From a virus, in the IMG/VR virus record IMGVR_UViG_3300034788_000438, positions 1 through 51,454 of that record: a stretch of 51,454 nucleotides of DNA; one strand, given 5' to 3'. Both the position numbers and the translations under genes were made by a program. Every line of letters starts with the position of its first letter. Within the stretch, counting starts at the first letter, position 1. A model generated the notes under the pieces. It made no database searches, was not told where the DNA came from, and was given only the letters and a program-made list of their open reading frames with translations. Below, piece after piece: positions 6,576-35,797 of the stretch.

Positions 6576-9052
6576 CTGAAACAACCTTTGACAATGACAT
6601 TCACAACGCTCTCTTTTTTGAGGGAGCAAACGTCACGAATGGCAACTCCTTTTCTGAAAAGTGGTCAGACATCATTTTCTCTGCCCTTAAAGCAGGCGGG
6701 ATGCTTGATAATATTGTCATTTCAAACACGCCACCAACGCCCTCAATTCCGCCTGCGGACCCTACTCTTTGGCTGGATACGCGACCACACCCAGACCTTC
6801 CATCCGTTCTTAGACGCAGAAATCGGGTAACACTGGAATGGGACAAAGTTACGTATTCTGATTTTTTTGATAGTGAGACATCTTCTCTTACCGTTAAAAG
6901 CTTTGGTGTGGTTGCCAATGACCCCACGGCGGCGGTTGATAACGTTGCCGCCATCAATGCGGCAGAGTCTTGGTGTTCTGAAAACAATGTAGATTTGCTG
7001 TATGAGGGTTTGATTTACTGTGAAGGGCGCGTCATCTGGCAGTCTAATGTGCACCGTCGCGGCGTGGGCGTTGTGCCAAACCTGCGCCCTGCGCCTAGCA
7101 CCATCGGGGCAAGTACGCCAGAAGAGCTTTTGACAAACACGTCTGGCTGCGAGCTTCGATTTATTGGAACTGGCGTGAAAGACTTGGAATTTCCTTGGGT
7201 TACAAATGCTTCGCATTCAGGCTTTGGCCGCGCCAACCCGCGACGGCCCTACAGCAATGCGTATGACGCCCGGCTTGATTTGCGGGATTTCTCTAACCAA
7301 GATGCGGTGGGTGCGACACCTGCAACGCTGCGGCAAATGTCTGCGGCGGTTGTTATCAACAACAACACCTTGGATCGAATTTATTGCGAAGGCATCACTA
7401 TTAGGACGGCCTGCGATGGAACATCTTCTGACGGCGGGACTAGCCTTGAGGGTTACACGGTAACGGATCGCCTACCAGATTGGGCAGATTACGACATCGG
7501 TCTTCTTGTGGATAGTCCGTGGCAAGCAGAGTTTTATCGCTTGAATGTTATTGGGTATTGGAATGAGGCCGGTGTTTTGTGGTCTAGCTCTCGCAATGCT
7601 CCTGAGTTCAACGACCCAAGTGAGGCCTTTAGGGGGTACGCTGAAGGCAACCTTTGGCGTCATTGCCTTATTCAATCTGGCTGGGTGTATCGCACCGCAG
7701 ATAGCTGGCCTATTCTGGCTAAAGACGGGGCGGCAGATACGATTACAGTGCCTTGGACTGCATCGCATCAGTTTGAGCAGACAGGAACTATTCGCATTGG
7801 CGCTAGCTTTGTGAGCTTTGCCACTTACGACTACACATCTGTTACTTTTGACAACTCTGGTAGCGAACCCGTTCTTATCATTGCCTTAGATACAACAGAC
7901 ACAAGCGGTATTGAAGTTGGAGACAACGGGCATCACGTCTACTTTTCTGGCGGCGCGGGGCCTGCTGGCACAGCGGCGTATGACTGCGAGTTCTACGACC
8001 TCAGCCCTACATCGCTATTGCAGGAACCAGCCTATGATCGACCGTATCGGGCCGGTTGTGAAATTTCTGGCGGCGTAGCTAGGGCAATTAAGCTTTACAA
8101 CTGCATCCTAAACCCTCTGGGTTTTATGCCTATCGCTGTTGGATATGCGCCAGATCTTCAGCTATCCGATTGCTATTCAGAGCCGCGCAGGTTCCGTTTG
8201 AGCCATGGTGGGCCTCTGCAAGATCGTGGGGGCTTGTTTATTTGCGGGCCTGACAATGCCCACTTTGATTTGCTTGGCGATGATCACAACGGCAGCTTGT
8301 ACGCTCGCGGTTACTTCCAGTGGCCAGGGCTTAACATGGCCCCTCTTGTTCGCGTATCTTCAACTGGATGGTTTGGCAATCTGGATGGGGATTGGTTTAA
8401 CCCGCGTAGTTACACCCCGCCAATTGAAGGAAGTCTTCGCACAAGTCGTAATGTAGCCTATGAGGGCTTGCGCGGGTACGAGGTGTCTTTGGTTGCTCGC
8501 CTGACGGATGGGACTTTTTACCCCGTCGCTTCTGGCGATGGCGCTACTGGTGACACCAACTTTGGGCAAGTTGACATTGGCGGAAGTTTTGTAGACTTTT
8601 TGACCCTTGAGCAAGGCGGCACTGCGCGTTTGCGCGGGGATTTGGTTTTCACCACCACGGCTAGCCCTGATATTAAAAATATTCGCAACGACAATGACAA
8701 CATTGCAAGCCAAAGCGCTCCAACAGGAACGGGCGGCTTCCGGTGGGTCGAATCACTCATGCAGCTTAGGTTGTTTAGCACACTTGCTGCCGCGCTTCAG
8801 TTGCACCGTCTTGACTCTGGAAGGGTTGCAGAGTTCCGCCGCAATGGCGTCGTGTCTGGCCAAATTGAGGTATATACGGACCACACACGTTACACCGTGA
8901 ACAGTGACGGCGACTACCTAGGGCAAACGTTCACAACAGCGGGTCGCCCGACTGCGGTAAAGACGGGTTTTTATGGATATGACACCACTCTGGGCCAACC
9001 CGTTTGGAAAAGCGCGACTGGCTGGGTGGATGCTTCAGGGAATTCTGTGTAG
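6572..9052 (+). CDS. tail spike / tail fibre, probable beta-helix, set A
   Basis: An 826-residue protein starting with ATGA overlap to the gp16-like gene. The N-terminal ~60 residues (FDNDIHNALFFEGANVTNGN) are probably the tail attachment part. The middle is rich in Gly, Asn, Asp and Thr with turn-like repeats, and contains SFGVVANDPTAAVDN-type sequence typical of the entry to pectate-lyase-like right-handed beta-helix tail spikes. The C-terminal end (TTLGQPVWKSATGWVDASG) resembles common phage fibre ends. Such spikes bind and often cut surface polysaccharide. I see no catalytic motif that I can assign. Confidence 0.7.
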   Translation: MTETTFDNDIHNALFFEGANVTNGNSFSEKWSDIIFSALKAGGMLDNIVISNTPPTPSIPPADPTLWLDTRPHPDLPSVLRRRNRVTLEWDKVTYSDFFDSETSSLTVKSFGVVANDPTAAVDNVAAINAAESWCSENNVDLLYEGLIYCEGRVIWQSNVHRRGVGVVPNLRPAPSTIGASTPEELLTNTSGCELRFIGTGVKDLEFPWVTNASHSGFGRANPRRPYSNAYDARLDLRDFSNQDAVGATPATLRQMSAAVVINNNTLDRIYCEGITIRTACDGTSSDGGTSLEGYTVTDRLPDWADYDIGLLVDSPWQAEFYRLNVIGYWNEAGVLWSSSRNAPEFNDPSEAFRGYAEGNLWRHCLIQSGWVYRTADSWPILAKDGAADTITVPWTASHQFEQTGTIRIGASFVSFATYDYTSVTFDNSGSEPVLIIALDTTDTSGIEVGDNGHHVYFSGGAGPAGTAAYDCEFYDLSPTSLLQEPAYDRPYRAGCEISGGVARAIKLYNCILNPLGFMPIAVGYAPDLQLSDCYSEPRRFRLSHGGPLQDRGGLFICGPDNAHFDLLGDDHNGSLYARGYFQWPGLNMAPLVRVSSTGWFGNLDGDWFNPRSYTPPIEGSLRTSRNVAYEGLRGYEVSLVARLTDGTFYPVASGDGATGDTNFGQVDIGGSFVDFLTLEQGGTARLRGDLVFTTTASPDIKNIRNDNDNIASQSAPTGTGGFRWVESLMQLRLFSTLAAALQLHRLDSGRVAEFRRNGVVSGQIEVYTDHTRYTVNSDGDYLGQTFTTAGRPTAVKTGFYGYDTTLGQPVWKSATGWVDASGNSV

Positions 9053-14243: not shown

Positions 14244-14429
14244 TTATGACCGCGACAGCGACCGCGACAGCGACCACGACCGCGACCACGACCACGACCG
14301 CGACAGCGACCACGACCGCGACAGCGACCACGACCGCGACCACGACAGCGACCACGACAGCGACCACGACCGCGACCGTGACCGCGACCACGACCGATTA
14401 TAACCCTCTGTCAGAATCGCCGCGTTCAT
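14244..14429 (-). CDS. X-Ser dipeptide repeat protein encoded by a hexamer repeat
   Basis: The ATG at 14429 overlaps the stop of the DUF gene (ATGA), so the frame is coupled to it. After an ordinary start (MNAAILTEGYN) the remaining 50 residues are 25 X-Ser dipeptides with X = Arg, Trp or Leu. They are encoded by repeated six-base units of the type [C/T][G/T]G-TCG. A plus-strand Thr/Ala-repeat reading over the same bases has no ribosome site or coupling. The plus-strand module at 25038-25674 has the same arrangement with a Gly-X repeat. Function unknown; the product would be strongly basic, aromatic and probably disordered. Confidence 0.5.
   Translation of the reverse strand: MNAAILTEGYNRSWSRSRSRSWSLSWSLSWSRSWSLSRSWSLSRSWSWSRSWSLSRSLSRS
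14247..14396. repeat. six-base tandem repeat (GACNNC type)
   Basis: About 25 tandem six-base units of GACCGC, GACAGC and GACCAC (plus-strand reading), with single-base variation at fixed positions. It is a microsatellite inside the X-Ser repeat gene and is expected to change length by slippage or recombination. Confidence 0.9.
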
Positions 14430-14767
14430 TTCTGCACCCGATATGTTTTGCCATGCTCAACAGCATCGATAATGGCACCGCGACCAATGATTACCCGACC
14501 CTCTGGAAATGGCTCAATCTCTTTGGGGTCAGCTTTTTCCGTTAGCATGTCGTGAAAACGGCCTGTGTCTGCAATCCATGCAGCGTCTTCCAAGACTATT
14601 TCTTGCGGGGTTACGGACACAACGCGGCCAACGTCAATCATGGTCACGGTGCGGATCAGGTAGATTTTTCCAATCTCCCAAGCGCTGTTGTCCTGCTTTG
14701 GCGCAGATCCAAACATTGCCGCTAGTTCCTTGGCTTCTCCGATAGTCATGCTGTCAAGTTTGCTCAT
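14426..14767 (-). CDS. DUF6948-like protein, copy 1
   Basis: A 113-residue protein whose layout matches the 124-residue protein at 25038-25412. Both begin with a short motif (GEAKELAAMFGSA here, GDLKKIAAMFSGS there). Both continue with a beta-rich part reading as 'I(V)L-R-(T/C)...AG/DVGRV' and a middle Trp/Arg region. I recall this family as DUF6948 in other phages, where it also precedes a Gly-X repeat gene. Function is unknown. The start follows AGGAGAGA. A TGCGACA box lies 66 bases upstream, and the stop overlaps the start of the repeat gene. Confidence 0.55.
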   Translation of the reverse strand: MSKLDSMTIGEAKELAAMFGSAPKQDNSAWEIGKIYLIRTVTMIDVGRVVSVTPQEIVLEDAAWIADTGRFHDMLTEKADPKEIEPFPEGRVIIGRGAIIDAVEHGKTYRVQK

Positions 14768-21238: not shown

Positions 21239-21820
21239 GGTGTGTGTCGCAGGGGTGGGTTTGCAGGTTAGCAGAATCCACTTTGCACAGTTTGCAAACT
21301 CTCTGTTGGATTTGCTGGGGAAATGGCTTACAAAAGAAAGCGGCGGCGCGAGACTGTGAATCTCAAGCGCCGCCTTGGAAGGTGTACCGTCTGGCAGGAT
21401 TTGCACACCTTCGACAGCAAATATACCCAAACACGGGGCGCGTTGCAACAATCCTGTCTGACTTTTGGCCCTTAGAAAGCAAAGGGTATGGCAGATGGCT
21501 CACTGTTCTAAGCAAATGAGCAAAAACAAATCGCGGGCAATGCTTCCCTTTGTACCCCGTGGCCGTGGAGTTGAACGAGCAACCCTCGGAAGGTAAAGCG
21601 CCAAATTTTGCGCCTGTGTTGGAATTTGACCCCCAATATGGCGTTTTTTGGTAAGGTCGCCTGGAAAAGACCTTGGCAGGTGTTGGGAAACCAGCAGGGC
21701 GAGAGCCAAAGGAAATGAGTACTGGGCGAAAGCTGGGCGTGGTCTGCCCCCGTGGTTAAGGTAGGTGGCTATCTCCACGGCAGGAAAAGGGGGAGCTGTA
21801 TCTAATGGAAGGAAAGACGG
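21239..21820 (+). other. 582-base region without a convincing gene; hairpin-rich
   Basis: No frame here has both a ribosome site and protein-like composition. One weak possibility is a 50-codon frame at 21323-21475 (MAYKRKRRRETVNLKRRLGR start). Visible structure includes a hairpin pairing GGCGGCGC (21342-21349) with GCGCCGCC (21367-21374), extended by GAGA/TCTC, and a GCGCCAAATTTTGCGC-type inverted repeat near 21600. The right half is purine-rich. A reverse TGCGACA box lies at 21245-21251. It could hold a regulatory RNA, a replication origin or a decayed gene. Confidence 0.5.
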
Positions 21821-21976
21821 ATGAAAGATGAAGATCTGCAAGTAGAGCGATGCAGGATTGCATTGTATGATCTGGGTTCAAGAGAGGGTGCTACAGTCCA
21901 TGGAGTGATCAAGCAATTAAAACGGGACGGCTTCACGGCTGATCAGATTTCAAAAGCTGCGGATAAGACGCTTTAA
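21821..21976 (+). CDS. 51-residue helical protein
   Basis: ATG 21821 follows GGAAGGAAAG with suitable spacing. The product (MKDEDLQVERCRIALYDLGS...) reads as a compact all-helical protein, possibly DNA binding (TADQISKAADKTL end). It ends just before the next TGCGACA-type box. Not recognised. Confidence 0.5.
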   Translation: MKDEDLQVERCRIALYDLGSREGATVHGVIKQLKRDGFTADQISKAADKTL

Positions 21977-21981
21977 CCCCC

Positions 21982-22014
21982 CGCGACATTTTGTCAACTT
22001 CCCCACCCTTCCGC
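21982..22014 (+). promoter_or_regulatory. CGCGACA box with possible promoter
   Basis: CGCGACA (21982-21988) is a one-base variant of the TGCGACA box. It is followed by TTGTCA (21991-21996, a good -35) and a C-rich spacer (CCCCACCC). A weak -10 (TCTAAG) lies 18 bases on. The box ends 67 bases before the GTG at 22055. Confidence 0.45.
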
Positions 22015-22054
22015 TCTAAGGCAGGATGGGGAGAGAGTAACAAGGAGAGAGATT

Positions 22055-22453
22055 GTGGAGATTGATATTTTCAATTACGTCAATGACGCAGAAATCAAAG
22101 AGGCTATTCTGGACGGCATCAAGAATTATGCGTCATCAAATGCAGAGCGTGTTATTGCGAATGCGGGGCATCATTTAGCCACGGACATCGTGAATGAAAA
22201 GCTTGGCGTAAATGCTGAGGTTGACATTGCTCTTAAGGCTAAGGAAGTGATCAGTAAGCTTTCTAGCTACACTCTTTTTGATGTCGGGGGTTATGGTCGG
22301 CCACCGTCAGATGCGCGAAAGCTTTTAGATCATTGCGTTCGGGAAAACAAAGACGATCTTTCCCAAGCGGTAAAGTCTGCCATGCACAACCTTTCAAAGC
22401 GTGACGTGATGGAAATCATTAAAGAGGGCAAGTTTAAAATGGTGGTTGAGTGA
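22055..22453 (+). CDS. 132-residue unknown helical protein
   Basis: It starts at GTG 22055 behind AAGGAGAGA. The acidic N terminus (MEIDIFNYVNDAEIKEAILD) leads into a helical body with NAGHHLATDIVNEKLGV and a charged end. No motif is recognised. It sits directly before a replication-type gene and behind a box-associated promoter, so it is probably an early protein. Confidence 0.55.
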   Translation: MEIDIFNYVNDAEIKEAILDGIKNYASSNAERVIANAGHHLATDIVNEKLGVNAEVDIALKAKEVISKLSSYTLFDVGGYGRPPSDARKLLDHCVRENKDDLSQAVKSAMHNLSKRDVMEIIKEGKFKMVVE

Positions 22454-22456
22454 GCC

Positions 22457-22939
22457 ATGAATGACCTCTTTCAATGCACTTGCCCCCACTGCGGCCAACC
22501 GCTTCCAGACCAAAGCGTCACTGAAACCACGAAAGACGGAAGCTTTGCAAAATTCTGGGCTAGCATCCCCAAGGGAACAACAAAGGGCAGCAAGAAAAAC
22601 GCAGAGAAGGCATGGCACAAGCTTACAGCGCAGGAGCAGGCCCTAGCCGCAGAGCGCGCCCCCGTGTTCTACACGCTAACGCCAGATGAGCGTTTCGGTG
22701 CGCTGGGTTTGCATGTGTCCACGTTTCTCAACGGCGGTCACTACGAAGAGGAAGTGATAGCTGAGAAGATGAAGCGCCGCCAGGAGAAGGCCGCATACGA
22801 TCCGCGCCAGATGGCAGCTAAAAACATCAAGTCGGGCAAGCGCTTTCTATGCACAAACATAACCCCCACCAAGGCCCGCACCCTCATTGCAGATGGCCTT
22901 GTGACAGAGGACGAATGTAGAAAGGTAGGAGTGTTGTAA
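22457..22939 (+). CDS. zinc-ribbon protein with a phage-replication-type C-terminal block
   Basis: A 160-residue protein. The N terminus CTCPHCGQPLPD is a short zinc ribbon half. The middle FAKFWASIPKGTTKGSKKNA then AEKAWHKL and, later, HVSTFLNGGHYEEE match the pattern 'FxxFWxxxPK...KxAxKAWxKL ... HxSTxLNGxxxEE'. That pattern ends many phage replication initiators and helicase loaders. The N-terminal replication domain of such proteins is absent, so it is a shortened or specialised relative. It is the best candidate for a replication protein in a genome that lacks polymerase and helicase. Confidence 0.5.
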   Translation: MNDLFQCTCPHCGQPLPDQSVTETTKDGSFAKFWASIPKGTTKGSKKNAEKAWHKLTAQEQALAAERAPVFYTLTPDERFGALGLHVSTFLNGGHYEEEVIAEKMKRRQEKAAYDPRQMAAKNIKSGKRFLCTNITPTKARTLIADGLVTEDECRKVGVL

Positions 22940-23301
22940 TGGCTAAAACATGGAGAGAACGCACAAAGGCGCAGAAGCTGGCAGCGGTGAAGCGTTTGGC
23001 AAAATCAGACTGCGGGAAAGTGGACGCTTCTAAAAAGCTGGGTATTCACCTGACCACGCTTTACAACTTTCTGCACAAGCATGACATTGAGTGGACGTTT
23101 AAGGCAAACCCAGGCCGCAAGGAACAGAATTTCCCAACAAGCCAAATCGCCGCGTTTTACGAAGACGGCAACACGATGAAACAGACTGCGGAGCATTTTG
23201 GCATTTGCGTTCACAGCGTCAGGAATCGCCTAGAGCGCGCAGGCGTCACCCCTCGCCCTAGCGCGGCGCAGATCAACGCCACACTGGCGCAACACACATA
23301 G
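22939..23301 (+). CDS. double helix-turn-helix DNA-binding protein
   Basis: A 120-residue basic protein with two apparent HTH segments. One is at about residues 24-50 (GKVDASKKLGIHLTTLYNFL). The second, at about 77-104, reads NTMKQTAEHFGICVHSVRNR, both in the style of Hin/transposase N-terminal domains. The start shares a base with the previous stop (TAATG). It may be an early regulator or a replication accessory factor; no catalytic domain follows. Confidence 0.6.
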   Translation: MAKTWRERTKAQKLAAVKRLAKSDCGKVDASKKLGIHLTTLYNFLHKHDIEWTFKANPGRKEQNFPTSQIAAFYEDGNTMKQTAEHFGICVHSVRNRLERAGVTPRPSAAQINATLAQHT

Positions 23302-23375
23302 GGCGCGACAACTCGCCGCATTCCTAGGCACCCAACAACAGGCCAGTATAGGGCCACACACAAAGGAGAGACACA

Positions 23376-23795
23376 ATGCAGAAACTGATTATTGCAGGGA
23401 CGGTTGGGCGCGACGCAGAATTGCGCCAAACAGGCCGGGGCGATCCGGTCCTAGGGTTCTCACTTGCCATCGACAACGGCAAAGACCAGCAGGACAACAA
23501 GCGTGACGCCACATGGTACGATTGTTCAATTTGGGGAAAGCGAGCAACAGCGCTGCAATCCTACATCACCAAGGGTTCTAAGCTGACTCTGATCGGGCGT
23601 CCAACTGCGCGCGAGCATCAAGGCAAGGTTTACATGGGCATTTCCGTGGATGACCTGACGTTCATGGGCGGCGGTCAACAAGGTGGCCAGCAGGGCGCCG
23701 GCTACGATCAAGGCGGGGGGTATGGGCAAGGTGGTCAGCCGAGCAGTCGCGACATGGATGATGAGATCCCGTTTGCTCCTGAGTGGCGCGCATGA
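23376..23795 (+). CDS. ssb: single-stranded DNA-binding protein
   Basis: A 139-residue SSB. The OB fold spans about residues 1-103 (MQKLIIAGTVGRDAELRQTG, then ATWYDCSIWGKRA and LIGRP). A Gly/Gln-rich linker follows, and the acidic tip DMDDEIPF is close to the canonical DDDIPF that recruits host replication proteins. Six more residues (APEWRA) follow the tip. The ribosome site is AAAGGAGAGA. The stop overlaps the methyltransferase start (ATGA). Confidence 0.9.
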   Translation: MQKLIIAGTVGRDAELRQTGRGDPVLGFSLAIDNGKDQQDNKRDATWYDCSIWGKRATALQSYITKGSKLTLIGRPTAREHQGKVYMGISVDDLTFMGGGQQGGQQGAGYDQGGGYGQGGQPSSRDMDDEIPFAPEWRA

Positions 23796-24472
23796 CCGCA
23801 ATCAAGCGAGAGGAGCGCATAGGCGATTGCCGACTCATTTTGGGTGATTGCCTTGAGGTTATGAAGGAGTTGGAGCCGGTTGAAGCGGTGGTTACAGACC
23901 CGCCTTATGGGATTGCCGATAAGTGGACGGGCGGCAGCGGGCATGGATGGGGCAAGGCGAAGGCGCAGACGGAGAAGCGGAACAAATGGGATTCGGAACC
24001 ACTTGGCTTGTCTGAGTGTGAGCAGATTATCGCAGCCGCAAGGAAGGTAATCATTTGGGGTGGAAACTACTTCCCGCTCCCTCCTTCGCGTTGTTGGCTG
24101 GTCTGGAACAAACCGGAACGCGGCTTCACGTTGGCGGAGGCCGAGCTGGCGTGGACAAATATCGACTCCGTTGTTCGGGTGATTGATGCACCACGCTCGG
24201 AACCTGATCGGATACACCCGACGCAAAAGCCTATTTCTGTAATGTCTTTCTCAATTGAGAAGTCAAAGGCCGAAACCATCCTTGACCCCTTCATGGGCAG
24301 CGGCACCACCCTAGTTGCCTGCGCCAAGCTGGGCCGCAAGGGCATCGGCATCGAGCTAGATCCTGACTATTTTGACATCGCCTGCAAGCGTGTTGAGGAG
24401 GCTTACGCGCAGCCGGACCTCTTTGTTGCGCCACCAAGCACACCGCCAGAACAAACCGGAATGGATTTTTAG
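23792..24472 (+). CDS. DNA methyltransferase (N4/N6, DPPY type)
   Basis: A 226-residue enzyme with motif IV DPPY (36-39) near the N terminus and motif I PFMGSGTT (167-173) near the C terminus. This is the beta-class order of amino-methyltransferases that act on adenine or cytosine N4. IHPTQKP (141-147) is also typical. It has no linked restriction gene, so it is an orphan enzyme, likely used to escape host restriction or to mark phage DNA. The ATG at 23792 overlaps the SSB stop. The target site cannot be read from the sequence. Confidence 0.85.
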   Translation: MTAIKREERIGDCRLILGDCLEVMKELEPVEAVVTDPPYGIADKWTGGSGHGWGKAKAQTEKRNKWDSEPLGLSECEQIIAAARKVIIWGGNYFPLPPSRCWLVWNKPERGFTLAEAELAWTNIDSVVRVIDAPRSEPDRIHPTQKPISVMSFSIEKSKAETILDPFMGSGTTLVACAKLGRKGIGIELDPDYFDIACKRVEEAYAQPDLFVAPPSTPPEQTGMDF

Positions 24473-24481
24473 GAGAGACCC

Positions 24482-24985
24482 ATGCTTCAATCTCAATTCA
24501 AAGCCAACGCCCAACACCCTGACAAATACGCAGGCCAGGAGTTTGAATCCCGCAAGGTCACGCACATGCCGCTTGACGGTAGCCCGCTGACACTTGAGGA
24601 AATCCGCTTTCTTGAGACGGTGGCTTTCCAATTCCCCCAGCTTGCGGAGAAGTATCGGGTGCATGAGGTGATGCACAAAGCGCCGGTCAAACAGTCTGAG
24701 GGAACCATGTGTGACAGCCGAATGGTGCCATCAAGTAAAGCGCTGGAAAAGACCAGCAAAAAGGAAGAGCGCCGCAAGGGGGTGCATGAGTTCCTGAAAG
24801 GCCGCGATTGGACAATGGTTAGCGAAGTTGCCGCGCAATTCACTGTCATCAAAAGCACTGCATCGGCTGACCTGAAGGCGCTTCTTGATGATGGCTTGCT
24901 AGAAACCAAGCTGGAACCAATGAGGGGTCAAGGCGGGATTTGCCGACTATACCGCCGCACAGACTGCGACACTTTGTCAAATTGA
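24482..24985 (+). CDS. winged-helix-type protein of unknown role
   Basis: A 167-residue protein with a polar N-terminal half. The C-terminal domain (about residues 98-155) reads KGVHEFLKGRDWTMVSEVAA followed by STASADLKALLDDGLLE, the pattern of a winged helix-turn-helix. AGGAGAGA precedes the start. Its last codons contain the TGCGACA box (24965-24971) and the -35 of the next promoter. It may be a regulator or a DNA-processing accessory. Confidence 0.5.
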   Translation: MLQSQFKANAQHPDKYAGQEFESRKVTHMPLDGSPLTLEEIRFLETVAFQFPQLAEKYRVHEVMHKAPVKQSEGTMCDSRMVPSSKALEKTSKKEERRKGVHEFLKGRDWTMVSEVAAQFTVIKSTASADLKALLDDGLLETKLEPMRGQGGICRLYRRTDCDTLSN

Positions 24986-25002
24986 TGCAAGCAGCCTATC
25001 GG
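24965..25002 (+). promoter_or_regulatory. TGCGACA box with promoter before DUF copy 2
   Basis: TGCGACA (24965-24971) is followed by TTGTCA (24974-24979), a 17-base spacer and TATCGG (24997-25002), a plausible sigma70 promoter that overlaps the end of the preceding gene. The box ends 67 bases before the start at 25038, as for the 22055 gene. Confidence 0.5.
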
Positions 25003-25037
25003 GCTAATCTAAACCCACAACACACAGGAGAGATAAA

Positions 25038-25412
25038 GTGGATATTGATGACATGAAATTGGGCGATCTGAAAAAGATTGCTGCGATGTTTAGCGGAAGT
25101 GGCGATGCGCCAACGTCAAGCGGGTTTGAAGGGCGTTATGTGATTGTTCGCTGCAAAGATGCTGGCGTTCATGCTGGGGTTTTGGTTGCGGATTCGGGGC
25201 GCACGGCAACGCTCAAGGAAAGTCGCCGCCTTTGGTACTGGAAGAGCAATAAAGGGTCATTCCTTAGCGGCGTTGCGCGTGATGGCCTAGACGAAGAAAG
25301 CAAAGTTGGTGGTGAGGTTGATATTCACCTGACCGAGACATGCGAAATCATCCCTTGCAGCGAGATTGCGGAGAAAAGCATTCGAGGAATCAAGGCTCAT
25401 GAGCGCGACTAA
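25038..25412 (+). CDS. DUF6948-like protein, copy 2
   Basis: A 124-residue protein (GTG start, AGGAGAGA upstream) with MKLGDLKKIAAMFSGSGDAP, YVIVRCKDAGVHAGVLVADS, SRRLWYWKSNKGSFLSGVA and LTETCEIIPCSEIAEKSI. I recall this pattern as DUF6948 in phages, where the gene precedes a Gly-X repeat gene. It is related in layout to the shorter protein at 14426-14767. Function is unknown; the beta-rich core suggests a small binding domain. The downstream repeat gene starts 14 bases before its stop. Confidence 0.65.
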   Translation: MDIDDMKLGDLKKIAAMFSGSGDAPTSSGFEGRYVIVRCKDAGVHAGVLVADSGRTATLKESRRLWYWKSNKGSFLSGVARDGLDEESKVGGEVDIHLTETCEIIPCSEIAEKSIRGIKAHERD

Positions 25413-25674
25413 CAAAGGCCACGGCTCCGGCGACGGCTCCGGCGACGGCTACGGCCACGGCCACGGCCACGGCTCCGGCTATGGCTCCGGCCACGGCTAC
25501 GGCTACGGCTACGGCTCCGGCAACGGCTCCGGCGACGGCAACGGCAACGGCCACGGCTACGGACACGGCAACGGCTACGGCTACGGCTCCGGCAACGGCT
25601 ACGGCAACGGCTCCGGCGACGGCGACGGCTACGGCAACGGCTCCGGCGACGGCGACGGCTACGGCTACGGCTAA
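25399..25674 (+). CDS. Gly-X dipeptide repeat protein
   Basis: A 91-residue protein: MSATNK followed by 42 Gly-X dipeptides and a final Gly. X is only Ser, Asp, Tyr, His or Asn. It is encoded by six-base units GGC-NAC or GGC-TCC with almost no synonymous variation. The start overlaps the end of the DUF gene in another frame. The product should be an extended, disordered chain that may bind RNA, DNA or membranes, or act as a sticky surface or phase-separating segment. Its function has not been shown, to my knowledge. Confidence 0.6.
   Translation: MSATNKGHGSGDGSGDGYGHGHGHGSGYGSGHGYGYGYGSGNGSGDGNGNGHGYGHGNGYGYGSGNGYGNGSGDGDGYGNGSGDGDGYGYG
25417..25671. repeat. six-base tandem repeat (GGC-NAC / GGC-TCC)
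   Basis: About 42 consecutive six-base units. Every second codon is Gly (GGC except one GGA). The alternate codon is AAC, GAC, CAC, TAC, TCC or, once, TAT. Length and order are expected to be unstable. Confidence 0.9.
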
Positions 25675-25685
25675 AGGAGGTGATC
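25673..25685 (+). promoter_or_regulatory. extended anti-Shine-Dalgarno match without a gene
   Basis: AAAGGAGGTGATC is complementary over 13 bases to the usual 3' end of 16S rRNA (GATCACCTCCTTT). It begins on the stop codon of the Gly-X gene. No ordinary start codon with an open frame follows; GTG at 25680 reads only V-I-S-I before a stop. A leader for a tiny peptide, ribosome docking or a decoy role is possible. Confidence 0.45.
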
Positions 25686-25700
25686 AGTATCTAAGCCAAA

Positions 25701-25883
25701 GTTACCGGCTGGCAAGCTGGCCGGTGACACCGCTTCTTTGCAGATAGCCCCAGCTTTTTTTTCATAAAGTCGAGTTGTTTGGGGAAACTGCCGGATGATC
25801 CGGTCGGGGCTATCTACATGGGCGCGGCCGCCTGTCCGCCAGAAGTGAGGGTGAATGATATGGTTCACCGACAGGACGCGCCC
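25701..25883 (+). ncRNA. candidate structured RNA of three consecutive hairpins
   Basis: Hairpin 1: GTTACCGGC (25701-25709) pairs with GCCGGTGAC (25720-25728), 9 pairs with one G-U. Hairpin 2: AGATAGCCCC (25742-25751) pairs with GGGGCTATCT (25806-25815), with an inner CCGGAT (25791-25796) / ATCCGG (25798-25803). Hairpin 3: GGGCGCG (25820-25826) / CGCGCCC (25877-25883), then CCTGTC (25831-25836) / GACAGG (25870-25875), then GGTGAA (25850-25855) / TTCACC (25864-25869). An eight-T run lies at 25755-25762. The region has no gene and lies between the Gly-X gene and a small membrane protein whose ribosome site follows it. It could be a regulatory leader or a free RNA. Confidence 0.65.
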
Positions 25884-25904
25884 AACCCATAAGGAGAAGT
25901 TAAC

Positions 25905-26090
25905 ATGAGAGGAAAAAGAGTTATGGCAGCATTGGTTTTTTGGGTGGCAGTTTTGGCAGGATGGTTGACGCACATTGTCGTTGCCATCCAAGCAAAAGCT
26001 TGGGTCTTTATGATTGTTGGAGCATTGCTATCACCAGTGGCTGTTGTTCACGGCTGGTCTGTGTGGCTTGGCTTTGATTGGCTGCATTGA
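25905..26090 (+). CDS. 61-residue two-span membrane protein
   Basis: MRGKRVMAALVFWVAVLAGW leads into two hydrophobic spans (about residues 7-28 and 32-52) with a short Trp-rich end. The ribosome site AAGGAGA follows the structured RNA directly. I recall similar small membrane proteins beside Gly-X repeat genes in other phages, which suggests a functional unit. Role unknown. Confidence 0.55.
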   Translation: MRGKRVMAALVFWVAVLAGWLTHIVVAIQAKAWVFMIVGALLSPVAVVHGWSVWLGFDWLH

Positions 26091-26184
26091 CCCCCCCTGC
26101 CCACATCATCCGCCGCCCCTACCGCTACGGCTGGGCGTGGTTCAACACACACAGCAACAGGTTTCTATTTGAGGAGAAGACACA

Positions 26185-26421
26185 ATGACAAACGGCGCAG
26201 AACTGACAGCAGCGATTGAGGCGATTGAAGGCCTTGAGGAAGAGCGCGCACAAACAGCCGAGCTTATCAAGGAACGGTTTGGTGAATTGAAGTTGCGCGG
26301 CTATGACGTAAAGGTCATTAAGGAAATCATCCGCGAGCGCAAAAAAGACCCCAACGACGTTGCCGAGCAAGAGGCGGTCAAAGACCTCTACAAAGCAGCT
26401 ATGGAGCGGGTAAGTGACTGA
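26185..26421 (+). CDS. gapR: GapR-like nucleoid protein (DUF2312)
   Basis: A 78-residue helical protein. The pattern IEAIEGLEEERAQTAELIKE followed by GYDVKVIKEIIRERKKDPND and EQEAVKDLYKAA is that of GapR (DUF2312), an alphaproteobacterial protein. GapR clamps overtwisted, AT-rich DNA ahead of replication and transcription and helps gyrase. A phage copy could manage supercoiling during replication or redirect host chromatin. GAGGAGAAG precedes the start. It is coupled to the MazG-like gene (8-base overlap). Confidence 0.8.
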   Translation: MTNGAELTAAIEAIEGLEEERAQTAELIKERFGELKLRGYDVKVIKEIIRERKKDPNDVAEQEAVKDLYKAAMERVSD

Positions 26422-26929
26422 TTGGAACGCACTAGCGCAAAGCATTCACCAAGCAAACGTTGATGCGGGATGGTGGGACGAATGGCCCAACCGCAAAGAC
26501 CGCTACAACACAGCCCGCATGTTGATTGTCACAGAGCTTGCAGAGGCCGCAGAGGGTGCGCGCAAGGATCTGATGGACGATCACCTACCACACCGCAAAA
26601 TGTTGGACGTTGAGCTTGCGGACTCGGCCATTCGCATTCTTGATCTAGCGGGGGCGTGTGGGGTTGACCTGTCTCGCGCAAACGACTTCGCTTGCCGTGT
26701 GTGGTTCAAGACGCTGGAAGGCTTGCGCAATGACCTTGAGGCGCTCGATTTGATTGTTGGTTCGGTGTATAAGAAGGGCATCGACGCCGCGCTTATCCGC
26801 ATCATCACTCTTTGCAAATACAAGCGCATTCCCTTGCTGGAAATCATCGAAGAAAAGCGGTTATATAACGCCCAGCGAGCAGACCACAAGCGCGAGAACC
26901 GCGCACAAGCAGGAGGGAAGAAGTGGTGA
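26414..26929 (+). CDS. MazG-like nucleotide pyrophosphohydrolase (probable)
   Basis: A 171-residue all-helical protein. E44xxE47 (ELAEAAEGARKD) followed by E67xxD70 (DVELADSAIRIL) is the ExxE...ExxD metal site of the MazG/all-alpha NTP pyrophosphatase family. Such enzymes hydrolyse nucleotides such as dUTP or ppGpp-related compounds and are common in phages. The C-terminal ~90 residues add a second helical part (RIITLCKYKRIPLLEIIEEK). The start is GTG at 26414, overlapping gapR. Confidence 0.6.
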   Translation: MTDWNALAQSIHQANVDAGWWDEWPNRKDRYNTARMLIVTELAEAAEGARKDLMDDHLPHRKMLDVELADSAIRILDLAGACGVDLSRANDFACRVWFKTLEGLRNDLEALDLIVGSVYKKGIDAALIRIITLCKYKRIPLLEIIEEKRLYNAQRADHKRENRAQAGGKKW

Positions 26930-27264
26930 GCAATGCGGATTTGATTAAGCGGCTGCGTGACCAGCCTGTCATGGCATGGTCGCCTCCTATTCTAAAGCAG
27001 GCCGCAGACGCTCTAGAGGCCCACGAATGGCGCACAGACATGGAGAACGCGCCGAGGGATGGGACTTGGATCAGGGCCTATTTTCCAGATTGGGCGGCAT
27101 GTGAGGAGCGCACAGGGCATCACGCACCAGGTCAAATCGATACGTATTGGGCTGGTTGCGATACGTACGGGCGCTGGCAAACACCTGGCCGAACCTCTAC
27201 GGACGAATACAAGCCAACCCACTGGAAGCCCCTCGACAACCCGCCAGACACACAGAACACTTGA
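26926..27264 (+). CDS. 112-residue unknown protein (DUF551-like C-terminal part)
   Basis: The start is taken as GTG 26926 (GTGA overlap with the MazG-like stop); GTG 26923 is equally possible. The N terminus is helical (NADLIKRLRDQPVMAW). The second half WRTDMENAPRDGTWIRAYFP and THWKPLDNPP resembles DUF551-type sequences (a W...aP.dG...y pattern, then HW.pLp.PP). Function unknown. It is the last gene before a strong terminator. Confidence 0.55.
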   Translation: MSNADLIKRLRDQPVMAWSPPILKQAADALEAHEWRTDMENAPRDGTWIRAYFPDWAACEERTGHHAPGQIDTYWAGCDTYGRWQTPGRTSTDEYKPTHWKPLDNPPDTQNT

Positions 27265-27346
27265 CGCCAACCCACTCACGGTTGATAATAACAACACTGC
27301 GTGACTAATCACTGCCTCACGCTTTCAACTTCCCTGTTGATTACTT

Positions 27347-27380
27347 GACCCCGCTGGCTCTCCTCGGCGGGGTCTTTTTT
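27347..27380 (+). terminator. rho-independent terminator
   Basis: GACCCCGC (27347-27354) pairs with GCGGGGTC (27367-27374) around a 12-base loop and is followed by six T. It ends the rightward early operon after 27264. Confidence 0.9.
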
Positions 27381-32978: not shown

Positions 32979-34622
32979 ATGCCTAGCGTCTCGGAGATTA
33001 TGATTAAGCAGAGCGAGATGGAGGCTCTGCGAGGGAATTGGGAAAGCCTGTGGGAAGGTGTTGCACAGCTTGTGCTACCCCGCTCCGATGACTTCCGCAA
33101 GAAGCACTCCCCAGGCACGCAGCGAAACCAGCAGCAATACGATGCGTTTCCTATGCAGGCGCTCGACAAGTTCGCAGCAGCTATTGAAGCGGGGCTTATG
33201 CCGCGTAACGCGCTGTGGCACAGCCTGAGTACAGGCGACGATGAGCTTGACGAAAACCACGAAGTGAAGATCTATCTTGAGGAATTGAACCAGCTTCTGT
33301 GGGATACGCGTTACAGTCCGCGCGCCAACTTTGCCAGTCAAGCGCATGAAAACCGCATTAACATCGGAGCATTTGGCACCGGTGCATTTCTGATTGAGTC
33401 ACAGGAAGATGGCAACGGCGTTCAGTACAAGGCAATTCACCTCAGCGAGCTATTCATTGCATCCAACTGGATGGGATTGATTGACGTGGTGCACCGCAAG
33501 TTTGACCTTACAGCGCGTCAGGCCATGCAGTTGTTTGGCAAGGACACGCCGGAAAAAATCCGCCACAAGTTTGAAACCGGTGGTGTGCATGAAAAGTTTG
33601 AGTTTTTGCACGCGGTAATGCCGCGCGAGGACTACGACAAAGAAGCCGTTGATGACCGTGGCAAGCGGTTTGTTGGCGTCTATATCTTCGTTGAGGGCCA
33701 GCAGAAGGTGCGCGAGGAGGGCTATTACGAAATGCCCTACACCGTGTCTCGATACTCTGTGTCGATCCGCGAGAACTATGGCCGCTCCCCAGCAATTCAG
33801 CTTTTGCCTGACATCTCCATGCTTAACGAGATGCGCCGCACCACGATTGAGGCGGCGAACATGGCGGTTGATCCGCCGACGCTGCTTTACGATGACGGGA
33901 TTAGCGAGTTTGACCTAACACCAGGTGCGCGGAACTACGGCGCGCTTGATGAGCAAGGTCGCCCACTGGCTGCGCCGTGGAACCCAGGTGTGAACGTTGG
34001 GCTTGGCCTTGAGATGATCAGCGACACACGCAACCAGATTGATGATGGGTTCATGGGGATTTACTTCCGCGTCCTGATCGAGAACCCGCAAATGACAGCC
34101 ACGCAGGCGCTTCTTATTGCACAGCAGCAGGGGCAAATGTCAGCTCCGGTAATTGGTCGCTTGCAGACAGAGTGGCTTGGGCCAATGATCCGGCGCGAAA
34201 GTGCAATCCTCTATCGTCAGGGCAAACACCCGCAAATGCCGGAAATCCTTCGTGAGCGCATTGCATCGACTGGCAAGGGCGTAAACATTGAATACGTGTC
34301 GCCACTGACCCGCGCTGCGCGTTCGGAAGAGGCTGTGGCTATTCTTCGCACATTCGAAACGCTGGCCCCAATCGCACAGATTGACCCGACTGTGTATGAT
34401 CAGTTTGACACTAAAGAGGTGGCGCGTATTGTTTCTGAGGTTAATGGCGTTCCAGCTAAGGCACTGAAAGACCCGTCGCAAGTTGAGGCAGAGGAAGACC
34501 AGCAGGCAGCACAAGCGGCCATGGGCGCAATACTTGATGCCGCACCAGTTGCAGCCGACACAGCCAAAACGCTGGCGGAAGCGCAGGCAGCATCACAACA
34601 ACCAGCACCGGTGGCTAGCTAA
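32979..34622 (+). CDS. portal (head-tail connector), T7 gp8-like
   Basis: A 547-residue protein. Its opening MPSVSEIMIKQSEMEALRGN, then WESLWEGVAQLVLPRSDDF, ANFASQAHENRINIGAFGTG and a C-terminal Gln/Ala-rich helix fit the T7-type head-tail connector (T7 gp8 has 536 residues). The dodecameric portal sits at one capsid vertex, docks the terminase and later the tail. It follows the 57-residue gene by one base and overlaps the next start by one base (TAATG). Confidence 0.85.
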   Translation: MPSVSEIMIKQSEMEALRGNWESLWEGVAQLVLPRSDDFRKKHSPGTQRNQQQYDAFPMQALDKFAAAIEAGLMPRNALWHSLSTGDDELDENHEVKIYLEELNQLLWDTRYSPRANFASQAHENRINIGAFGTGAFLIESQEDGNGVQYKAIHLSELFIASNWMGLIDVVHRKFDLTARQAMQLFGKDTPEKIRHKFETGGVHEKFEFLHAVMPREDYDKEAVDDRGKRFVGVYIFVEGQQKVREEGYYEMPYTVSRYSVSIRENYGRSPAIQLLPDISMLNEMRRTTIEAANMAVDPPTLLYDDGISEFDLTPGARNYGALDEQGRPLAAPWNPGVNVGLGLEMISDTRNQIDDGFMGIYFRVLIENPQMTATQALLIAQQQGQMSAPVIGRLQTEWLGPMIRRESAILYRQGKHPQMPEILRERIASTGKGVNIEYVSPLTRAARSEEAVAILRTFETLAPIAQIDPTVYDQFDTKEVARIVSEVNGVPAKALKDPSQVEAEEDQQAAQAAMGAILDAAPVAADTAKTLAEAQAASQQPAPVAS

Positions 34623-34909
34623 TGAGCAATCAAAGCGCACGGGCGCAGCAGAAGCTTGACCTGATCCGGTCCTATCGTTCCATCTTCTGCAATGAGAAGG
34701 GCGAGCTAACGCCAGATGCGGAAGCGGTGTTGCGTGACCTTGAGAAGGAGTGCGGGTGGATGCCCAAAGCGCTTCCAACCATTTCCACCGGCGCTATTGA
34801 CCCAATCCGCATTGCTGCAGACACAGAAAAGCGCCGCGTATATGCCCACATTCGAGCCATGCTATTTGGCGACGTTATGCACCTTCGTCGCACAACTGAG
34901 GGCGAGTAG
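34622..34909 (+). CDS. Bbp19-like small structural-region protein
   Basis: A 95-residue protein with LIRSYRSIFCNEKGELTPDA, VLRDLEKECGWM and EKRRVYAHIRAMLF. The pattern 'YRxxF..xxG..VLxDLxxxCG ... Gxxxx(R)xxI' is that of Bbp19 of Bordetella phage BPP-1, located between portal and scaffold. Its role is unknown. Confidence 0.65.
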   Translation: MSNQSARAQQKLDLIRSYRSIFCNEKGELTPDAEAVLRDLEKECGWMPKALPTISTGAIDPIRIAADTEKRRVYAHIRAMLFGDVMHLRRTTEGE

Positions 34910-34951
34910 CTTTCAGCTTTTTAGGTGCCTCAACTGAAAGGACAAGACCAA

Positions 34952-35797
34952 ATGTCAGATGACGTAAACGCGGCCCCCGATGTGGGCCAAGCCGCACCAG
35001 CCCCAGAGGCTGCGCCCGTTCCGGCGGCTGCACCTGTGGCAGAAGGCGCGGCACCTGCGAATTGGTTTGATGGCTTCGAGAACTCGGAGCTTAAGGGCTA
35101 TGTTGAAACCAAGGGGTTTTCTAACCCAGAAGCATTGGCAAGCAGCTACCAAAACCTTGAGAAGCTGCGTGGCGTACCGGCGGAGCAGTTACTGCAACTG
35201 CCTTCCGACTTGACGGACGCTAACGCAATGGCCCCCGTCTATGAGCGCTTGGGTCGCCCAGAGACAGCCGAGAGTTACACCAACGTGCTTGGTGACAGCT
35301 TTGATGATGGCGTGTTTAAGAATGTTGCGGCGCAGGCTCACCAGCTTGGCCTTGGCGATGCACAGTTTCAGGGCCTGCAAAAAATCATGGCAGAGCAATC
35401 CGCCGCCGTGCTTGAAGCGCAGGAGGTCGAGACAGCTGAGGCATTTGACAAGTGGAAGTCCGAGAACGAACAGGGCTTTCAGAATGCCGCAAAGGTTATG
35501 TCCGATGTTGGCATGAGCGAAGAGAACCTTGAGCTTCTACTCTCTGGCGACAAGACAGCGCTGTATGGCTTCCTTGCGCAGATTGGCGAGCGCTCCGGTG
35601 AACCCAACGTGATCCAGGGTGAAAGTCCGCGCGGTGAAGGGTTTGGCATGACACCCACAGCAGCCAAGCAAAAGATCAACGAGTTGATGGCTGACAAGAC
35701 ATTCCAGGAGCAATACTACTCGGACAACAAGAAGGTTCGCGCCGAGGCAATTTCCCGCATGACCGCGCTGCATGAAGCAGCAGCGAAGCAAGGTTAA
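34952..35797 (+). CDS. scaffold (capsid assembly) protein
   Basis: A 281-residue protein with an acidic, Ala/Pro-rich N-terminal half and a helical C terminus. The pattern FSNPEALASSYQNLEKLRGV and RPETAESYTNVLG is typical of T7 gp9-type scaffolds. It directs capsid shell assembly and leaves the prohead. The ATG at 34952 has AAAGGAC upstream; the longer reading from 34925 lies in the gap. It sits between the portal and the major capsid gene. Confidence 0.75.
   Translation: MSDDVNAAPDVGQAAPAPEAAPVPAAAPVAEGAAPANWFDGFENSELKGYVETKGFSNPEALASSYQNLEKLRGVPAEQLLQLPSDLTDANAMAPVYERLGRPETAESYTNVLGDSFDDGVFKNVAAQAHQLGLGDAQFQGLQKIMAEQSAAVLEAQEVETAEAFDKWKSENEQGFQNAAKVMSDVGMSEENLELLLSGDKTALYGFLAQIGERSGEPNVIQGESPRGEGFGMTPTAAKQKINELMADKTFQEQYYSDNKKVRAEAISRMTALHEAAAKQG

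Follow-up and report, generated by a model that had tools for sequence, protein, structure and literature searches.

The window analysed here, i. e. the whole stretch of DNA at its full length, is a virus record of 51,454 bases. On its plus strand a gap of 230 bases (25675-25904) lies between the stop codon of the Gly-X gene and a gene for a small membrane protein. The gap contains no convincing gene, in line with the initial annotation; reading frames that overlap it are shadows of the neighbouring genes or short. It very probably encodes a folded RNA of about 210 nt on the plus strand, referred to as the element in the following, and the conserved block begins at the stop codon upstream and ends at the ribosome-binding site of the gene downstream (Table 1). 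The element sits in a cluster of plus-strand genes that includes GapR-like and MazG-like genes and in which, by eye, genes for a single-strand-binding protein and a DNA methyltransferase can also be recognised. The gene at 24482 is weakly MarR-like.

Table 1. Features of the three-hairpin element and its surroundings (positions in the window; L002 is the homologous phage record described in the text)
Feature	Position	Strand	Remarks
Gly-X gene (upstream)	25399-25674	+	Last base of its stop codon opens the element; absent beside the L002 copy
AAGGAGGTGATC, extended Shine-Dalgarno-like stretch	25674-25685	+	Read from the sequence; kept in L002
Hairpin 1 region	25674-25739	+	Robust inner stem and possible outer stem
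Hairpin 1, possible outer stem	AAGGAGGTG 25674-25682 / CGCTTCTTT 25731-25739	+	Context-dependent
Hairpin 1, inner stem	25701-25712/25717-25728	+	12 pairs including G-U; probability at least 0.96 in three contexts
Hairpin 2	25742-25815	+	10-pair stem AGATAGCCCC/GGGGCTATCT (25742-25751 with 25806-25815); outer pair probability at least 0.91
Run of eight T	25755-25762	+	Within hairpin 2; not a terminator tail
Hairpin 2, inner stem	25790-25795 with 25799-25804	+	
Hairpin 3, branched	25819-25884	+	8 pairs; 6 pairs; 7-pair arm and weak 3-pair arm
Hairpin 3, stems	25819-25826/25877-25884; 25831-25836/25870-25875; 25850-25856/25863-25869	+	
AAGGAG, ribosome-binding site of the next gene	25891-25896	+	End of the conserved block
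Small membrane protein gene (downstream)	25905-26090	+	61 residues; PHROG 7319, unknown function; membrane character by eye; replaced in L002

All stems that had been proposed for the gap were found at the places given for them, and the eight T behind the 5' strand of hairpin 2 are present as well. Hairpin 1 had been located correctly, but its stem has 12 pairs including G-U and not nine. The possible outer stem of hairpin 1 forms with a probability of 0.03-0.81 in the window, depending on the context, and of 0.01 in L002. As an explanation for the sharp 5' border of the conserved block it was dropped; since its probability varies with the context, we no longer claim this stem. The 12-mer AAGGAGGTGATC at the 5' end, which would be complementary to the 16S rRNA 3' end over a long stretch, is followed by no ATG, GTG or TTG at the usual spacing and occurs once in the other loci examined, carriers of the element excluded. 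Depending on the context, it may form pairs within hairpin 1, or it may make contact with ribosomes.

The predicted fold is more stable than expected from composition. Among 1000 dinucleotide shuffles each, nine were as stable as hairpin 1 (z -2.7), two as stable as hairpin 2 (z -3.1) and one as stable as hairpin 3 (z -3.9). None of 400 shuffles reached the whole element at the limits set for the fold tests (25674-25885; z -3.8). Folded separately together with their flanks, the element of the window (z -3.1; 2 of 200 shuffles) and that of L002 (z -3.6; 0 of 200) gave the same picture. The plus strand folds with -95.9 kcal/mol compared to -84.9 kcal/mol for the minus strand, which likewise beats its own shuffles (z -2.6; 3 of 200). 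The minus strand also carries a promoter-like site inside the element, TTGCCA-18-GATACT, with 9 of 12 matches (window 25715-25686, minus strand; 6682-6711, plus strand, in L109, which is the L002 record). It may be incidental, because the whole stretch is conserved.

A single homologue of the element was found, in the 36.6 kb record IMGVR_UViG_3300037963_003409 (L002, positions 2369-2594). This record was obtained when IMG/VR was scanned for relatives of the MazG-like protein encoded nearby (26414-26929); the scan yielded 80 loci, the best 80 of 108. Over 25674-25885, 199 of 211 aligned bases are identical (94.3%), with four gap positions, one of which is owed to the chosen cut of the L002 copy; in the model alignment the two copies differ by 12 substitutions and three indels. 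The 68 leading bases are identical, including the 27 that precede the robust stem of hairpin 1. Identity extends from AAGGAGG (25674) through CCCATAAGGAGA and ends there.

The element is among the best-kept parts common to both phages; the GapR-like gene comes close to it. The shared genes have identities of 92.4% (GapR-like), 89.8% (22457 gene), 81.7% (MazG-like) and 64.2% (24482 gene), and the stretch 21494-21824, which has no convincing gene, is 99% identical in the L002 phage and thereby exceeds the element. In view of the values for the GapR-like gene and for 21494-21824, the high identity of the element may be due to recent exchange. The two phages seem to differ in their structural genes: the L002 record was not among the matches listed (12 loci) for the terminase of the window, and a terminase-like frame in L002 was recognised by eye.

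The differences that fall within the stems keep the pairing. All 51 pairs named for model R1 form in both phages. One of them, in the 7-pair arm of hairpin 3, is changed on both sides (U-A to C-G), and one, the first pair of hairpin 2, is changed on one side in L002 (A-U to G-U). In the 6-pair stem of hairpin 3, which lies outside the 51 pairs, the 5' strand is rewritten in L002 (CCGCCUGUC versus AUCUUGCACC), and a pairing of six bases with its partner is retained. This strand pairs over a greater length than 19,801 of 20,000 random strands; the other 199 equal it. The L002 copy folds with -92.8 kcal/mol. When the copy of the window was mutated at random with the same kinds of change, 25 of 1000 mutants reached this value, and in the reverse direction 49 of 1000 reach the energy of the window; the mutants have their changes spread singly, whereas the real substitutions are clustered, seven of the 12 in one short block. 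A column-shuffle control on pairing was equalled in 265 of 500 cases, and with two rows it has no discriminating power. Coming from two sequences, the pairing-compatible changes are suggestive, i. e. moderate support for the structure and no proof of it. Together with the stability above shuffles, they bear out the initial annotation in its view of a structured non-coding element. We conclude that the element very probably is a real structured RNA, known from two phages.

Inverted repeats exist in the DNA as well, and a hairpin serving replication, recombination or packaging at the DNA level would be in line with the minus strand also folding above chance. The element lies at a mosaic border and could be a shared sequence used for gene exchange. 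Several plus-strand pairs are G-U, however, which become A-C on the other strand; the A-U to G-U change keeps the pair only in RNA; and the plus strand folds better than the minus strand. Each of these is a weak argument. We regard a DNA-level feature as very improbable.

Possibly, the gap could hold a protein gene that has decayed or is very small. One such frame reads LGKLPDDPVGAIYMGA, and about 15 of its residues are kept in both phages. This frame has 37 codons in the window and is shifted and meets an earlier stop in L002, and by eye no ribosome-binding site precedes its TTG. None of the frames extends across the element in both phages, and because three indels separate the copies, a protein product is argued against. 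We regard this possibility as extremely improbable.

Known RNA classes did not account for the element either, in agreement with the initial annotation, which had recognised none. With Rfam release 15 no family reached its gathering score, neither over the whole window nor in a permissive search of 25600-25960; the latter returned three sub-threshold matches with 13.8-15.9 bits, compared to gathering scores of 48-75. ARAGORN found no tRNA or tmRNA gene in the window. No description of this RNA was found in the literature searched, which lay mostly outside subscription journals and included PMC9378689, PMC8040213 and PMC10386132.

The run of eight T had suggested a terminator-like stem that competes with hairpins 1 and 2. 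On paper such a stem exists (AAGCTGG 25714-25720 with CCAGCTT 25750-25756), but the competition does not take place in the predicted ensemble: the forced stem is worse by 13.6 kcal/mol in 25674-25764 and by 17.5 kcal/mol in the full element, and its ensemble probability is 0.00. A terminator scan scored none at this T run. In L002 the run reads TTCTTTTTT and is interrupted by a C. On the energies and the interrupted T run, a terminator/antiterminator switch was rejected.

In the initial annotation the element was tied to the Gly-X gene upstream. The window (25038-25674) and the loci L082-L107 show a DUF6948 gene followed by a Gly-X (Gly-Ser/Tyr/Asp) gene as a recurrent two-gene cassette; relatives of DUF6948 occur in 26 other viral loci, and a Gly-rich frame follows within about 100 bases in 21 of these 26 and in the window. 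A second, diverged pair is found at 14244-14767 on the minus strand of the window, where a weakly DUF6948-like protein (29% over 68 residues; no Pfam match) is followed by a low-complexity repeat frame. The term DUF6948 was not found in the literature searched. Model R1 detected the RNA in none of the 26 other DUF6948 contigs, all of which were searched whole (23 whole records, 11 plus 12, and the loci L090, L092 and L101, which are whole contigs). In L002 a relative of the 24482 gene directly precedes the RNA, and neither a DUF6948 nor a Gly-X gene lies between them. Thus the RNA is not part of the Gly-X module, and the proposed tie fails. The covariation that was to be sought in gaps linked to Gly-X genes could not be found there, as none of the 26 holds the RNA; in L002 the stems are kept, with the one pair changed on both sides.

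The gene downstream is exchanged as well. In L002 the RNA is followed by a gene of 60 residues without detectable similarity to that of the window, directly behind the shared ribosome-binding site. With this dissimilar gene in its place, a leader of the membrane protein gene in particular is not supported. A riboswitch or gene-specific leader goes with a constant downstream gene or pathway, and in the sole two copies the genes differ. That the conserved block ends at the downstream ribosome-binding site would suit a regulatory leader, i. e. a riboswitch or a translational switch, in which CTTCTTT (25733-25739) might pair with AAGGAGG or with the downstream AAGGAG. The downstream pairing reaches a probability of 0.54 in one of three window contexts. 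Yet it is lost in the longer contexts and in L002: its probability does not exceed 0.04 in the two remaining window contexts or 0.20 in L002. The terminator alternative is unstable. The ribosome-binding-site switch was rejected on these grounds, and a regulatory leader of the downstream gene appears improbable. The element may, on the other hand, be a general leader for any following gene as opposed to one particular gene.

Further copies were sought by several routes. With the element as the query, no phage match in blastn exceeded 31 bases, a wider query gave none, and no plasmid match exceeded about 37 bases. Among the loci L002-L122, blastn and nhmmer found only L002/L109 beyond chance level. 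The first of three viral pattern scans was empty; the other two led to L109 and to L108, L110 and L133, which are taken as unrelated and in which model R1 found nothing. L108 (2514-2590, plus strand) has the exact 19-mer AAGGAGGTGATCAGTATCT in common with the element. It was rejected as a homologue: the match lies between genes that look tRNA-like by eye, behind a stop codon, and folds differently. By a rough estimate for a large collection it is probably due to chance.

Five viral protein scans gave the best 80 of 108 loci, 26 loci and 12 loci, no relative in the fourth (which missed even L002) and again the L002 record in the fifth. R1 was run on the window, on 79 of the 98 loci L002-L099 (the other 19 were covered by blastn and nhmmer), on 23 further loci and on two more. 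On whole viral records it found 1 of 23, the L002 record, and 0 of 50. A search of eight records, among them the genomes of seven relatives of the MazG-like protein from a genome contig scan, gave one partial match (model positions 6-61, E 0.015), which is taken as chance. Phages phiGT1, pCB2047-A, pCB2047-C, RDJL Phi 1 and SIO1 were negative (0 of 5), with the L002 record recovered as a control. No copy was found in 385 genomes of the class of a Sphingopyxis genome, a set without a known positive that was searched with stricter filters.

A second structured RNA lies in the same region, at 21325-21430 on the plus strand, and occurs in three phages (also L131:8002-8110, plus strand, and L145:158-261, minus strand). 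It is better supported than the three-hairpin element. Model R2 was built from the window and Sulfitobacter phage phiGT1 (unannotated gap 34364-35004) and finds the L002 phage independently with an E value of 1.8e-18. Across the three phages 9 of 27 pairs are changed on both sides, and all 77 lettered cells form standard pairs (four more are gapped); neither value was reached in 500 shuffles, the alignment being one fitted to the model. Over 37 records R2 gave two strong matches (phiGT1, by construction, and the L002 phage), a weak one in SIO1 (E 0.038) and none in the other 34. Rfam had no match near threshold for this RNA. It is embedded in about 580 nt (21239-21820) that hold no convincing gene. 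The L002 phage has almost the same sequence there, apart from the surroundings of the hairpins, in which many changes are compensated. The whole stretch may form a single long RNA or serve as a regulatory region; on neither strand does 21490-21830 fold better than expected by chance.

Two smaller marks were observed in the region. At 27261-27374 (plus strand) a promoter-like TTGACG-17-GATAAT is placed shortly before the terminator 27347-27374, and both are kept in the L002 record; together they could specify a short RNA (about 80 nt) or act as an attenuator within the cluster. A short hairpin motif, AGCCnnnnGGGCTAA, is found at 24993 (plus strand) in the window and at positions 3342 and 3952 of the reverse complement of L109. 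Both phages have it behind the 24482 gene, and the L002 phage has one further copy; it is perhaps a promoter or operator mark.

With regard to function, the phage messenger RNA probably carries the element as an inbuilt means of control or processing. A cis-acting role fits best, because the element fills the space from stop codon to ribosome-binding site, lies on the coding strand within a same-strand cluster, and has two exchangeable neighbours. We tentatively favour a structured intercistronic RNA of about 210 nt which serves the processing, protection or insulation of the downstream message; among the roles considered, this is the likeliest. The RNA would be read on the plus strand with the transcript of a same-strand cluster of early type and would act in cis on its own transcript, whichever genes flank it. 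A host ribonuclease might cleave at or beside the stems, or the stems might block exonucleases and the run-through of ribosomes. By such processing or insulation the downstream gene would gain its own insulated 5' end together with its ribosome-binding site.

Alternatively, the nascent RNA could fold, bind the host RNA polymerase and cause it to read through terminators further down the cluster, similar to the put RNAs of phage HK022. The tandem stem-loops within a phage gene cluster and the indifference to the neighbouring genes would fit such an antitermination. A strong intrinsic terminator (27347-27374), also present in the L002 record, follows 1.46 kb further down on the same strand, and same-strand reading frames continue behind it. 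However, the element is about three times as long as put and has three hairpins instead of two, and no plus-strand promoter was scored upstream in 22000-25673 by what is a weak scan. The same scan scored no plus-strand sigma-70-like promoter in the whole of 22000-27260; it is not made for this host group, and as it gave three promoter-like sites where shuffles gave 5.4, it says little. We consider put-like antitermination unlikely and, among the cis-acting roles, rank processing or insulation above it.

A small RNA, free-standing or derived from the messenger, might instead act in trans on host or phage messages. The 68 identical leading bases, of which 27 precede the robust stem of hairpin 1, are consistent with this, as are the independence of the neighbours and the U-rich stretch. 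Its borders on the plus strand have no promoter-like or terminator-like site in the weak scan, though, and the conserved block includes the ribosome-binding site of the next gene, which is needless for action in trans. A role in trans is likewise unlikely.

The widest interpretation is that of a new class of phage RNA, a portable cis-acting module shuffled among phages of alphaproteobacteria (roseobacter type). It would act directly on the transcription or translation machinery of the host, for example by put-like protein-free antitermination or by capture of the 30S subunit via AAGGAGGTGATC. We regard this as quite unlikely. Hosts of the roseobacter group are inferred because another stretch of the same region matches Sulfitobacter phage phiGT1. 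Phage genomes are mostly read for their proteins, and an RNA kept at 94% amid the exchange of both its neighbours is a candidate functional module of phage operons. As the same region contains a second, better-supported RNA, roseobacter-type phages look promising for the discovery of unknown RNAs.

Comparison with known systems gives both likenesses and differences. With intrinsic terminators and attenuators the element shares a GC-rich stem arm beside a T run, but the stem before the T run is unstable and the run is interrupted in the homologue. Phages also use intercistronic hairpins that process or stabilise their mRNA, for example the RNase III sites of T7. Like these, the element has long stems on the coding strand between genes of one transcript and is indifferent to gene content; it differs in that it has three hairpins in tandem and a 5' segment of high conservation, and cleavage is putative here.

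In PMC9378689, put of HK022 is described as an RNA of about 70 nt with two stem-loops, which acts on terminators at least 10 kb away without a dedicated protein factor; putL follows its promoter closely, putR at a distance of about 270 nt. As in put, the element is an RNA with tandem stem-loops in an early region of a phage and would be able to serve any downstream gene (PMC9378689). In contrast, it is about 210 nt long, has three hairpins and lies in the middle of a cluster; put was compared by its description. Two stem-loops in about 70 nt, as in put, are not what is found here. A further property of put is binding to the zinc-binding domain of beta' with suppression of termination. By size and shape it is thus not a member of the put group, whereas a similar action could still be exerted by a different structure. 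Should the element in fact act on the polymerase or the ribosome and need no phage protein for this, it would join put as an example of a rare kind of control.
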